From Clostridiales bacterium (GTDB lineage: Bacteria > Actinomycetota > Coriobacteriia > Anaerosomatales > SLCP01): a stretch of 64,000 bases of DNA. The notes beneath the pieces are model-generated. The model worked only from the letters and a program-made list of their open reading frames with translations. It was not told the origin of the DNA and made no database searches. The DNA lies in assembly GCA_018333995.1 (NCBI GenBank), contig JAGXSG010000031.1, positions 1-64,000 of the forward strand, given 5' to 3'. Shown here in pieces: positions 15,890 to 33,432 of the stretch (its first letter is position 1; every line of letters begins with the position of its first letter). The translations under genes and the position numbers were made by a program.

Positions 15890-16966
15890 CTAAAACGAAC
15901 GCTTCTTCAGAAATGCGGGAATGTCGAGCTCTTCTTCGGCGAGCGGTTCGAAGGTGGGAAGCGAGGGCCTATCGTCCAACGCGCCTTCGAACTCCATGGA
16001 TTCTTGCTTGCGGCGGCGTCCCTCAAAACCTGTCGCAATGACCGTCACCCGGATCTGATCCATCATCGAGTCGTCAATAACCGCGCCAAAGATGATGTTG
16101 GCGTCAGGATGTCCCGCAGCGGCAACCACCTCCGCGGCCTCGTTGACCTCGAACAAGCCAAGGTCTGAACCGCCTGCAATCGACAGAAGAATGCCGTGCG
16201 CGCCTTCGATGCTGGATTCCAGGAGCGGACTGGAGATCGCCGCCTTCGCCGCATCGTGGGCGCGGTTGTCGCCAGCGGCAAGACCGATCCCCATGAGCGC
16301 TGAACCAGCGTCGGCCATGATGGTGCGCACATCGGCAAAGTCAAGGTTGATGAGACCAGGCACTGTGATGAGGTCAGTGATGCCCTGGGTGCCTTGGCGC
16401 AGGATGTCGTCGGCCACCCGGAACGCGTCGAGGATCGACGTCTTTTTCTCGGCGACCTGAAGAAGACGGTCGTTGGGGATGACGATGAGTGTGTCGACGA
16501 CCTCGCGCAGGCGCTTGATGCCTTCCTCCGCCTGCAGGGCACGCTTGCGGCCTTCAAAAGCGAACGGACGTGTCACGACACCGACGGTGAGCGCGCCTAT
16601 CTCGTCTTTGGCGATCTGAGCGATGATAGGCGCTCCGCCGGTACCGGTACCGCCGCCCTCACCCGCCGTGATGAAGACCATGTCCGCGCCCTGCAAAGCT
16701 TCCTTGATCTCAGCGCGGTTCTCATCGGCGGCTTGCAGCCCGACATCAGGATCCGCACCAGCACCCAGACCCTTGGTCAGGCCCACTCCAATGTGAACCT
16801 TGTAGTCAGCGTCAGACATCAGGAGCGCTTGGGCGTCCGTGTTCACCGCGATGAACTCGACGCCCTTGACACCGGCTTCAACCATACGGTTCACGGCGTT
16901 AGTTCCGCCGCCGCCGACGCCGACGACCTTGATGACAGCGAGGTAGTTCGCGCCAGTCTCGAGCAT
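15890..16966 (-). CDS. ftsZ: FtsZ, tubulin-like division GTPase
   Basis: FtsZ polymerises with GTP into the Z ring. The 358-residue protein has [11 protein letters not shown] (about 18-28), the tubulin signature GGGTGTG at 104-110, the T7 synergy-loop residues NLDFADVR, and a conserved C-terminal peptide DIPAFLKKR that binds membrane anchors. The linker between the core (ends near 318) and that peptide is only about 28 residues, shorter than typical. ATG 16966 follows GGGAGGGGAGAC. It stands 239 bases from ftsQ, with its own candidate promoter, and no ftsA lies between them. Confidence 0.98.
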
Positions 16967-29787: not shown

Positions 29788-30345
29788 TCATCGCGACGAG
29801 GCGAGTGCTGCGTCGCCGGCGAGAAGAACCCTCGCCTCGCCCGCTGTCATCTGGATGATGGCCGAAAGCGTGTGAACGAACGTCTGTGCGCGATCGCTGA
29901 GTTGCTCGCCCTGCGGCCTAACCGCACTAACGGACTCGGCTTCGCCGCCTCCGGATAACTCGATGTAGGACACCTCTTGCGCGGCACCCATCCCCATGGA
30001 ACTCTCGGCGAGCGTCTTGATTCTTGGGGGCGCGACGAGAGCGCTCCTGTACTCTTCGAGTTGTTCCATCGCGATGCGCTCCGCCTCGATATCCTGCGCC
30101 AGAGAGTTGGCTGCCACCGCAGCTTCCGCGGCCTGGACGGTGAGGGCGACTCGGCCCATGCCCACCAGCGCTAGTATCGCCAGCACAACACACGCCGCTG
30201 CGAAGTTGCGCCGACATGAAGCGTCTGAACGCGCTGCGGTCCGGGAAACCGGACCACGACGGCGCCGACCTTCTCCCCTAATTAATCTCAGGGCAGGCGC
30301 GATAGGCCATGTATGACTGTCGTCGCGTCGAGCTGGAACCGCCAC
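29788..30345 (-). CDS. ftsL: FtsL-like septum-forming protein
   Basis: Predicted 185 residues: a basic cytoplasmic tail (about 1-57), one membrane helix (FAAACVVLAILALVGMGRVAL, about 60-80) and a coiled-coil segment with heptads (AAEAAVAANSLAQDIEAERIAMEQLEEYRSAL) ending in a long poorly conserved tail. The topology and the position between rsmH and ftsI identify it; sequence alone is weak because FtsL diverges fast. The frame extends 108 codons further over rsmH, but GTG 30345 is six bases after GGGAGG and starts after rsmH. The 80-residue C-terminal extension is longer than in most FtsL. Confidence 0.82.
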   Translation of the reverse strand: MAVPARRDDSHTWPIAPALRLIRGEGRRRRGPVSRTAARSDASCRRNFAAACVVLAILALVGMGRVALTVQAAEAAVAANSLAQDIEAERIAMEQLEEYRSALVAPPRIKTLAESSMGMGAAQEVSYIELSGGGEAESVSAVRPQGEQLSDRAQTFVHTLSAIIQMTAGEARVLLAGDAALASSR

Positions 30346-30388
30346 TTCGCACCTCCCTTCCGCCTCCGCGCCTAGCCACGCGTTGCGG

Positions 30389-31339
30389 TTACACGCGCTC
30401 AGCGGCCCGAAGCTTGGCGCTTCGGGAGCGCGGATTGCGCTCGATCTCATCGGCCGTGGGTACGACCGGACGCTTCGTGATGATGCGGAGTACCGGGGTC
30501 TGGCCGCATGAGCACACGGGCAAACCAGGAGGACACCCACACCCCGATGCCAGCTCCTTAAAGAGGTTCTTGACGAGCCGATCCTCCAGCGAGTGGTAGC
30601 TGATGACCACGATCCGGCCGCCTGGAGACAACCAGCGTACGGCGGCGCGAAGAGCTCGATCGAGTACATCCAGCTCGCGGTTGACCTCGATTCTGAGCGC
30701 CTGGAAGGTTCGGCGAGCGGGATGCGGACCGGTCCGCCTTGCGGAAGCAGGTACTGCGGCCTTCACGACCTCGACTAGATCAGTCGTCGTGAGGAGCGGC
30801 CGGCGGCCTCGCGCGGCTACGATGAATGCTGCGATGCGCGAGGCCCACCGCTCTTCGCCGTACTCACGGATCACTCTCGTGAGGTCGGTTTCGGAGTACG
30901 TGTTCACCACGTCCGCGGCGCTTGGGCCGCCTCCAGAAGGGTCCATCCTCATGTCGAGAAGCGCTTCTGCGTGATACGAGAACCCTCGCCGGGCTTCGTC
31001 GAGCTGAGGTGATGAGACCCCGAGGTCGAAGAGGAATCCGTCGGCATACGCGATCCCCGCCTCGATGAGGAGGGTGTCGAGATCGCCGAAGTTTCCCTTC
31101 TTCAGTATGATCGAAGTGGCTTGCCGGCCGAGGCGGAGTGTGGCTGCTGCTGCGTCTAGGGCTGCGTCGTCTTGGTCGATTCCCACCAGTGTCCCGGTGG
31201 GGGCGATCGAATCTGCGATCCGTTTCGCGTGTCCTGCCCCGCCTAAGGTACAGTCAACGATGATCGAACCGGGGTGCGACGAAAGGTGCGTCGTGACCTC
31301 GGCCGGCAAAACTGGGGTGTGCCGGTATTCCATTGTCAA
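30389..31339 (-). CDS. rsmH: 16S rRNA m4C1402 methyltransferase
   Basis: RsmH methylates N4 of C1402 in 16S rRNA using SAM. The 316-residue protein starts HTPVLPAEV, has the SAM loop VDCTLGGAGHAKRI, GFLFDLGVSSPQLD, RGFSYH..LDMRMD, and the C-terminal SYHSLEDRLVKNLFKE. An inserted CGCPPGLPVCSCG cysteine cluster near 280 is common in the family and may bind metal. It lies four bases after mraZ, the standard start of the dcw cluster. Confidence 0.97.
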   Translation of the reverse strand: MTMEYRHTPVLPAEVTTHLSSHPGSIIVDCTLGGAGHAKRIADSIAPTGTLVGIDQDDAALDAAAATLRLGRQATSIILKKGNFGDLDTLLIEAGIAYADGFLFDLGVSSPQLDEARRGFSYHAEALLDMRMDPSGGGPSAADVVNTYSETDLTRVIREYGEERWASRIAAFIVAARGRRPLLTTTDLVEVVKAAVPASARRTGPHPARRTFQALRIEVNRELDVLDRALRAAVRWLSPGGRIVVISYHSLEDRLVKNLFKELASGCGCPPGLPVCSCGQTPVLRIITKRPVVPTADEIERNPRSRSAKLRAAERV

Positions 31340-31343
31340 AGCC

Positions 31344-31778
31344 CTACAAGAAGCCGAGAGATAACATCTCTTCGGCGTCGTGTTCTATCGAGTCAGCCGT
31401 GTCACCGTTGTACTCGGCCCACTTCTCCAAGTCCCAGATCTCGATCCTGTCACCATTGCCGGTGATCGCAACGTCTTTTGTGAGTCCCGCATACTCGCGA
31501 AGCCCAGGCGGCAAAGTAATCCTGCCTGCCTTGTCCGACTCGGTCTCTACCGCACCGGACGTGAAAAAGCGGCGAACCTTGCGGAACTTGGGGTTAAAGT
31601 CATCCGTGCCCATTAGTCGCCGTACGAAGCCGGCGTACGTGTCTGCCGGATAGACGTAGAGACAGCCTTCGAAACCCTTAGCGATGACGATCCTGCCCGT
31701 CATCTCTCCACGGAATTTGGCGGGCAACGAGACGCGGCCTTTGGCGTCCAGCGTGTGCTGGTGATCGCCGAGGAACAT
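31344..31778 (-). CDS. mraZ: MraZ, dcw cluster transcriptional regulator
   Basis: MraZ is an AbrB-like repressor of its own operon. The 144-residue protein has two swapped-hairpin repeats marked by DAKGRVSLPAKFR (about 12-24) and DKAGRITLPPGLREY (about 82-96), each carrying the DNA-binding Arg. GGGGG lies eight bases before ATG 31778. The predicted promoter upstream carries three 10-base repeats that match known MraZ boxes, so autoregulation can be predicted from the sequence itself. Confidence 0.96.
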   Translation of the reverse strand: MFLGDHQHTLDAKGRVSLPAKFRGEMTGRIVIAKGFEGCLYVYPADTYAGFVRRLMGTDDFNPKFRKVRRFFTSGAVETESDKAGRITLPPGLREYAGLTKDVAITGNGDRIEIWDLEKWAEYNGDTADSIEHDAEEMLSLGFL

Positions 31779-31851
31779 CGTCCGTACCCCCTCCCCCGCC
31801 TTGTCACGACGTCTGGCGAAACACTCCGCCTCGCGTGGTTGGTCAGCTGCA

Positions 31852-31886
31852 TGTCACACTCTATGCCACTTGATCCCACTTTGCAA
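31852..31886 (-). promoter_or_regulatory. mraZ promoter with tandem MraZ box
   Basis: On the minus strand TTGCAA (31881-31886) and TAGAGT (31858-31863) are 17 bases apart. Within and over them are three head-to-tail 10-base units: AAGTGGGATC (31872-31881), AAGTGGCATA (31862-31871), GAGTGTGACA (31852-31861). The TGGG-centred, 10-base-spaced pattern is that of MraZ-binding boxes, and its place inside the promoter predicts repression. Confidence 0.7.
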
Positions 31887-31894
31887 CACCTATA

Positions 31895-31912
31895 TGGGAT
31901 TTCATCCCACTA
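31895..31912. promoter_or_regulatory. Upstream TGGGAT inverted pair, possible extra MraZ site
   Basis: TGGGAT-TTC-ATCCCA is a perfect inverted repeat (31895-31909), and TAGTGGGATG on the minus strand (31903-31912) matches the box unit. It lies 31 bases upstream of the tandem array, about three helical turns. Confidence 0.45.
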
Positions 31913-32081
31913 TTCCCCTCGGATTAACACTGCGGTTCCGTCGCGGGTTCAAACTGAACTCCCCCGTAAGGCTCGCTCGCGTGAACCCCGGGAGAGTCAA
32001 GAGCGTCTGAGTAAGCGAGAGGAGCACGCGCTCGCTGACAACTGGATACGCGAACCACGACTGAAGACCGCCCCGTCCGAT

Positions 32082-32109
32082 TGCGAGGAGACTGGTGAGC
32101 GGGTAGAAT
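32082..32109 (+). promoter_or_regulatory. Promoter candidate for the 44-residue membrane protein
   Basis: TTGCGA (32082-32087) and TAGAAT (32104-32109) with 16-base spacing, 41 bases before ATG 32150. Confidence 0.4.
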
Positions 32110-32149
32110 CAGTAGTGACCATTTTGGTGATTCGGAGGTGACACCCCTG

Positions 32150-32284
32150 ATGGGCGCCAATATCTCTGCCTCTGTTTTTAATACTTTCGCTCTTGCATTC
32201 TTCGTCGTCGTAGTGATTGGAGTCGCACTCGGTGCCTACGCCGCGATTCAGATGAAGAAAATGGAGGATAAGATCAAAGAATAG
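32150..32284 (+). CDS. 44-residue single-helix membrane peptide
   Basis: I found this small gene by reading the sequence: ATG 32150 to TAG 32284, with GGAGGTGA eight bases upstream. The peptide starts MGANISASVFNTFALAFF, continues with a hydrophobic helix (about 12-33, VVVVIGVALGAYAAI) and ends in a charged tail (QMKKMEDKIKE). A promoter candidate lies upstream and a nine-base-stem hairpin downstream, so it looks like an independent unit divergent from mraZ. I do not recognise the family. Its size and topology resemble small membrane regulators or assembly factors, but no function can be assigned. Confidence 0.65.
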   Translation: MGANISASVFNTFALAFFVVVVIGVALGAYAAIQMKKMEDKIKE

Positions 32285-32308
32285 CTCCTCCGTTCCGTGA
32301 GATTCGCG

Positions 32309-32342
32309 AACGCCCTCCCCACGCGTTGGATTCGAGGGCGTT
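32309..32342 (+). terminator. Terminator-like hairpin after the small membrane gene
   Basis: AACGCCCTC and GAGGGCGTT form a perfect nine-base stem with a 16-base loop, 25 bases after the stop. The trailing T-run is short (TTTGTGC-like), so strength is uncertain. Confidence 0.5.
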
Positions 32343-32382
32343 TGTGCGTTCTCGACACTTTAACCATGACAGGAGGCACGCG

Positions 32383-33432
32383 ATGTCTGGAATCAGGCAA
32401 CGAATCGGGCGCATCGTCCCCCAAGCGATCCTCGTCGTAGCCGTCGTGGCGTTTGCACTGGCGCTCACGGCATGCGGAACCGTGACGACGGAGAGCGCGG
32501 ATGCCCCGATAAATCAGGGGTTGGGGTACGGCGAGGGTGACATGGCCGTCCAAAGCTCCGACTCGATGCGTGCCGTACCTGAGATCGCTCCGGTTCCCCC
32601 GTCAGACGGAGCGGGGGTCGACGCTTCAACCGTGCCGCCAGATGAACGCATGGTAATCAGGACACTCGGTCTGCGGTTGCAAGTCGATGAGGTCGAACCC
32701 GCGGTGCAAGGCGTGCGGGACGCGGTAGATGACGCTGGCGGGATGGTCACTGCGGTGCAACTTTCGAGCGACGACGTACCCGTGTACCGATACGATGCCT
32801 CGGGCACGTTTGCGGACGGCGTCCCGCTCATGGGATACGTGACAGCCCGAGTGCCCCCCGACAACCTCGAGCGCTTCATCGAGACAGTCTCGGCGATCGG
32901 AACCGTGCTGAGGCAAGCGGAAGACGAGAGCGATGTCACCCAGGAGCACATAGACCTCAAAGCCCGACTCGAGAACTTGAGGTCGCAAGAAGCACGGTTG
33001 CGTGACCTGTTCGACCGGGGTGAGAAAATTGAAGACCTTCTCGAAGTCGAGCGTGAGCTCGGCCGAGTCCGCGGCGAGATCGAGTCGTACGAGGCTCGGG
33101 TCGCATACCTGGAGCGCCAAGCAGCGATGGCAACAGTCACCGTAGAGCTTACCGGACGGCAAGCCGTCATCGCGCCTGCGGGTGAGGACTGGGGCCTCGT
33201 GGACGCCGTGCGCGCAGGCATTCGCGGACTCGTCAGCACAATCAACGGGCTCATCTACGTGACGCTAAGCACCCTCCCGCTTATCGTGATCGCCCTTCTT
33301 GCGTGGCTGATCGCGCGGGGATTCTGGCGCAGACGCACCCGGCGGAACAGCCGTGAGAACCGTATCGGGATCGACGACGCGGCCACGCCCACTGAGGCCA
33401 CGTCCGCCGATGGCACGGACGAGACCCGGTGA
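32383..33432 (+). CDS. DUF4349-family lipoprotein
   Basis: Predicted 349 residues from ATG 32383, six bases after AGGAGG; the frame's earlier start lacks a ribosome site. An N-terminal signal ends in the lipobox ALTAC, so it should be lipidated by Lgt and cut by LspA. A charged region follows, then the DUF4349 domain (RMVIRTLGLRLQVDEVEPAVQGV, GYVTARVPPDNLERFI), a long coiled coil (about 195-260, with many Glu/Arg) and a C-terminal membrane helix (about 303-325) with a basic tail. It is thus tethered at both ends outside the membrane. The family's function is unknown. It overlaps the next gene by four bases. Confidence 0.85.
   Translation: MSGIRQRIGRIVPQAILVVAVVAFALALTACGTVTTESADAPINQGLGYGEGDMAVQSSDSMRAVPEIAPVPPSDGAGVDASTVPPDERMVIRTLGLRLQVDEVEPAVQGVRDAVDDAGGMVTAVQLSSDDVPVYRYDASGTFADGVPLMGYVTARVPPDNLERFIETVSAIGTVLRQAEDESDVTQEHIDLKARLENLRSQEARLRDLFDRGEKIEDLLEVERELGRVRGEIESYEARVAYLERQAAMATVTVELTGRQAVIAPAGEDWGLVDAVRAGIRGLVSTINGLIYVTLSTLPLIVIALLAWLIARGFWRRRTRRNSRENRIGIDDAATPTEATSADGTDETR

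Follow-up and report, generated by a model that had tools for sequence, protein, structure and literature searches.

A predicted MraZ operator with one flipped box at the promoter of the dcw cluster

In the stretch of DNA analyzed here (64,000 nucleotides, hereafter the window), GTGG/GTGT boxes at 10- to 11-base steps lie over both the -35 and the -10 element of the mraZ promoter and are conserved across the order. The array is most probably a MraZ box, the autoregulatory operator of the dcw cluster and as such of a known kind present in many bacteria, here of unusual length and predicted to include one flipped box, itself conserved in evolution. Four direct GTGG/TGGG-type units at ~10-base steps were found (31889, 31879, 31869, and 31859), located at the promoter of mraZ, the first dcw gene, and conserved in relatives, both in the order and in the wider class and phylum.

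The mraZ gene, its promoter, and the box array

The gene downstream of the array (31344-31778, minus strand) encodes a protein of 144 aa with two similar halves that matches Pfam family PF02381 in two stretches (1.3e-32), and the best solved relative is the MraZ of PDB entry 1n0e (75 bits). An earlier sequence-only reading of the window had proposed that the promoter reads mraZ, and the Pfam match bears this out. The gene is the sole MraZ gene in the 1.95-Mb draft genome, the named close relatives of which are Coriobacteriia MAGs. It is followed on the same strand by a codirectional dcw cluster comprising rsmH, ftsI, Mur ligases, mraY, ftsW, murG, murB, and ftsQ and extending to ftsZ at 15890. 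The ORF in the ftsL position (29788-30669, minus strand) had no Pfam match and overlaps rsmH as called; its true start is probably further downstream than the called one. Divergent from mraZ is an ORF of 44 residues with one hydrophobic stretch and no Pfam match (32150-32284, plus strand). A promoter-like TTGCGA-17-TAGAAT (32081-32109) lies before this ORF and a gene for a DUF4349 protein (32326-33432) after it. A second MraZ-like gene, ~40% identical to the window MraZ, was observed in two genomes of the order (G040:C36:102047-102400 and G054:C2:37522-37875), and the upstream regions of these second genes (L110 and L111) were alike and without the box array.

The mraZ promoter, TTGCAA-17-TAGAGT, lies on the minus strand ~79 bases 5' of the mraZ start codon. 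A simple promoter scanner did not call it (8/12 consensus matches), although both hexamers are conserved across the order. Direct reading of the minus strand at 31850-31879 gave three 10-base units, GTGGGATCAA, GTGGCATAGA, and GTGTGACATG, in which the G of GTG falls at 31879, 31869, and 31859, the exact 10-base steps that had been claimed. The units had also been placed exactly over the -35/-10 spacer, which is true of the first two, as they fill the spacer, but not of the third, which overlaps the end of the -10 element and the start-site region. The description of the site as three units was incomplete, as a fourth direct unit, GTGTTGCAAA, covers the -35 element (box 3) and boxes further upstream are part of the same array. 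The inverted pair reported 31 bases upstream was found there (GTGGGAT...ATCCCAT, 31893-31910) but is really direct box 1 plus one reversed box of the same array, in register. A 22-base repeat at a spacing of 31 was found as well, and an Rfam search of 31300-32700 gave no match. Up to eight slots occupy 81 bases, from 31850 to 31930, and the direct-box starts follow one another at steps of 10, 10, 21 (with the flipped box between), 10, 10, and 10. The features are as follows, with rows referring to the order alignment described below.

31881-31886, minus strand: -35 element TTGCAA; C and A at 90% of rows, the TTG being conserved by construction because rows were anchored on it
31858-31863, minus strand: -10 element TAGAGT; first T, A, and last T the same in all 61 rows
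31852-31859, minus strand: direct box 6, GTGTGACA (third unit of the sequence-only reading); 30% of rows exceed the 99% control score
31862-31869, minus strand: direct box 5, GTGGCATA; above the 99% control score in 98% of rows
31872-31879, minus strand: direct box 4, GTGGGATC; GGAT after GTG conserved at 98, 98, 92, and 79%, the GTG being part of the alignment anchor and the GGAT lying outside it
31882-31889, minus strand: direct box 3, GTGTTGCA; overlaps the -35 element; G, T, and G at -3 to -1 in 100, 85, and 90% of rows
31893-31900, plus strand: flipped box 2, plus-strand reading TATGGGAT; roughly one helical turn away from both box 1 and box 3
31903-31910, minus strand: direct box 1, GTGGGATG; the 99% control score is exceeded at -24 in 61% of rows and at -23 in 33%
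31913-31920, minus strand: possible further direct box at about -34, GAGGGGAA; weak in the window, where its GTGG has one mismatch; slot forward in 23/61 rows versus reverse in 3/61
31923-31930, minus strand: possible further direct box at about -44, GTGTTAAT; slot forward in 32/61 rows versus reverse in 3/61

From this arrangement, we predict with high confidence that the MraZ encoded in the cluster occupies direct boxes 3 to 6, excludes RNA polymerase, and holds the dcw cluster down as it accumulates. Judging by position, occupation of these four boxes would block both promoter elements.

Conservation of the array in the family, order, class, and phylum

The pattern AGTGG-N5-AGTGG-N5-AGTG (14 specified bases) had one mismatch-free match in the 1.95-Mb genome, at mraZ. 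A 20-base pattern of the two spacer units, searched with up to 2 mismatches, gave one match per genome in 9/9 family genomes, always just upstream of mraZ, while its reversed control had no match in the same nine genomes, indicating that the array is not due to chance. The 20-base pattern thus pointed to no other MraZ targets in the nine family genomes.

Upstream regions of mraZ were gathered from the order, class, and phylum. For the order, 61 distinct regions were aligned on the anchor TTG-N4-GTG[GT], which was present in 67/68 regions and the letters of which (TTG and GTG[GT]) are therefore conserved by construction. Conservation spans positions -24 to +28, and the consensus reads GTGGGATGAA, then TTCCCAT/C, then GTGTTGCAAA, GTGGGATGAA, GTGGCATAGA, and GT. 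The GTG-box adjoining the -10 element was kept in 60 of the 61 regions. The sequence-only reading had named absence of the repeats from close relatives as grounds for abandoning it, and it survived this comparison, the 10-base units being conserved. In many order relatives direct boxes continue upstream to about -55; the slots at about -34, -44, and -55 held direct boxes in 23, 32, and 18 of the 61 regions versus reverse boxes in 3, 3, and 1. Beyond the order, under a strict rule of three or more boxes at 10- to 11-base steps, direct arrays preceded mraZ in 70 of the 107 class and phylum upstream regions versus 0.25 expected from Markov shuffles. MraZ itself was found in 144/149 sampled genomes of the phylum. 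The uniqueness of the array at mraZ in the family genomes, the retention of the GTG-box in the order, and the excess of direct arrays in the class and phylum together identify it as a probable MraZ box.

Some phylum relatives also carry GTGG boxes on the opposite strand at 10- to 11-base steps, ~70 to 260 bases upstream of the promoter-side array (L131, L133, L139, L141, L147, L151-L153, L156, L157, L185, L186, L190, L196, L198, L199, L201, L204, L208, and L227). Such pairs occurred in 20 of at most 77 genomes versus 1.66 expected (36 pairs versus 1.74), and other CCAC spacings were also enriched, to a lesser degree (20 versus 5.0 and 37 versus 6.7), suggesting that the enrichment is partly one of local composition. 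In L133 and L151 the opposite-strand set does not mark a divergent promoter, since the upstream gene there is codirectional with mraZ. A looping partner site is one possible role for it.

The flipped box

A box matrix was built from boxes 1, 4, and 5, with slot 2 left out, and the best matrix site in slot 2 was then on the reverse strand in 51/61 order regions, mostly at one position. The flipped box matched the matrix less well than the direct boxes did, as it mostly lacks the initial G of GTGGG. As computed from the order alignment, the core of the reversed box lies within about half a base of the position that a direct core would have midway between boxes 1 and 3, which places it on the same helix face. 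In 44 of the 45 rows with a CCC core, that core lay 12 bases from where box 1 starts. Boxes 1 and 3 were 21 bases apart in 38 rows and 20 bases apart in 21; the flipped box thus keeps a fixed distance to box 1 and varies by one base relative to box 3. A-rich DNA follows it.

The orientation of slot 2 differs between lineages. In one genus of the order (L024, L025, L052, and L058) the slot contains TTGGGTGAAAA, a direct reading. For the class, orientations were read by eye and grouped by family labels: a direct GG-type unit fills slot 2 in genomes L112, L113, and L118-L121 of sister families, where box 1 persists; the slot is reversed in L114, L122, L123, and L171 and ambiguous in others. The ATGGTAAA of L112/L113 is the exact reverse complement of the TTTACCAT of L114.

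Whether MraZ also binds the upstream module, which consists of direct box 1, flipped box 2, and at least one direct box beyond them, is in our view an even call; if it does, a second ring is the probable form. One ring would then sit over the four slots of the promoter and the second on the upstream module, a proposal made by analogy with known four-repeat sites and the octameric MraZ ring, the latter as cited in PMC7761207. The flipped box may be readable owing to the two similar halves of the MraZ subunit, with which each subunit could approach a box from either side. That MraZ reads the flipped box is suggested by the register of this box, its retained TGGG core, the direct boxes of sister lineages, the lack of covariation with box 1, and the lack of recurrence elsewhere. 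More speculatively, the MraZ operators of the order, and partly of the class, might be two-ring sites of about eight slots with one regularly reversed. In such a site MraZ would recognize boxes of either orientation, and the reversed slot would serve to separate or to couple the rings across the promoter.

The main rival holds that only boxes 3 to 6 are the MraZ operator and that box 1 and the reversed box form a palindromic operator (type GTGGGAT-N3-ATCCCAT) at which another regulator, a dimer, acts from immediately 5' of the -35 element. In the window the two arms do resemble an inverted repeat, and their constant offset of 12 bases, against a one-base slip in the distance to box 3, fits a two-part site. 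The weaker matrix match of the flipped box and the description of MraZ sites as direct repeats only in the published accounts consulted also speak against binding of this box by MraZ. However, the half-sites do not change together: box 1 may be GTGG or GTGT, a variation shared with box 5 and with MraZ boxes generally, whereas the reversed arm stays CCCA, and complementary pairs between box 1 and the flipped box showed no clear excess over shuffles once a 1-base shift was allowed for. An apparent symmetric pairing of the two boxes was an artifact of that shift in some rows and vanished on realignment. Sister families, moreover, keep box 1 where slot 2 is a direct box. The palindrome was mismatch-free in the genome only at mraZ, and its matches with 1 or 2 mismatches were scattered (the only one-mismatch match lying inside an unrelated ORF), which gives no sign of a palindrome regulon, in a recurrence test that is blind to the regulator of a single operon. 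The inverted pair was accordingly rejected as the operator of a separate regulon, and we regard a separate dimeric regulator as rather unlikely overall.

Slightly less likely still is that the flipped box is an unbound boundary or bending element that sets the end of the promoter-side MraZ ring. It divides the four-box direct run (boxes 3 to 6) from the upstream run, and the A-rich DNA behind it would suit such a role, but the retention of a TGGG core is more than mere spacing would call for, and some lineages have a direct box in its place. That the units are merely a well-conserved promoter with no operator role is very improbable. The overlap of boxes 3, 5, and 6 with the -35 and -10 elements would fit this view, but promoter function alone leaves the strong conservation of the 17-base spacer and of the stretch upstream of the -35 (block -24 to -4, 61 order regions) unexplained. 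Moreover, GTGG repeats of this kind stand before mraZ in other classes too, where their distance to the start codon takes many other values, and in E. coli they lie downstream of the promoter.

Comparison with known MraZ systems

Few bacterial regulators are as widespread as MraZ. An operator family in which most lineages have one box reversed and the others have it direct provides ready-made sequences for testing whether the ring reads a box in both orientations and for the number of boxes per ring. Autorepression of the cluster by MraZ is documented for E. coli and M. genitalium, as is the binding of MraZ to series of GTG-type repeats (PMC8475190, PMC7761207, and PMC5138195), and in an M. 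genitalium mraZ mutant the mraW, MG_223, and ftsZ transcripts were raised (PMC8475190 and PMC7761207). The MraZ box itself is thus already known. A regularly reversed box and a run of about eight slots were not found in the published accounts consulted and may tentatively be regarded as a variant.

In E. coli K-12, read directly as a control, three direct units (GTGGGAAATT, GTGGGGCAAA, and GTGGGAATAA) precede mraZ. As in the window, these are direct GTGGGN units at 10-base steps, but in E. coli they lie downstream of the apparent TTGACA...TAAACT promoter, whereas the window boxes cover the -35 and -10 elements, extend upstream, and include a reversed one. The Mollicutes site consists of direct AAAGTG[T/G] repeats (PMC8475190, citing Fisunov et al. 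2016) and shares with the window the GTG[G/T] core, direct repetition at the mraZ promoter, and, in the M. genitalium chromosome, occurrence as a single site; in the available portion of PMC8475190, it is described as direct repeats, with no mention of a reversed unit. The dcw MraZ site of Burkholderia cenocepacia has four 7-base repeats with 3-base spacers, carries the GTG motif as the window array does, and was bound as a B. cenocepacia fragment in a gel shift; it differs in lying downstream of the -10 element, over the start site, and in having four direct units (PMC7761207).
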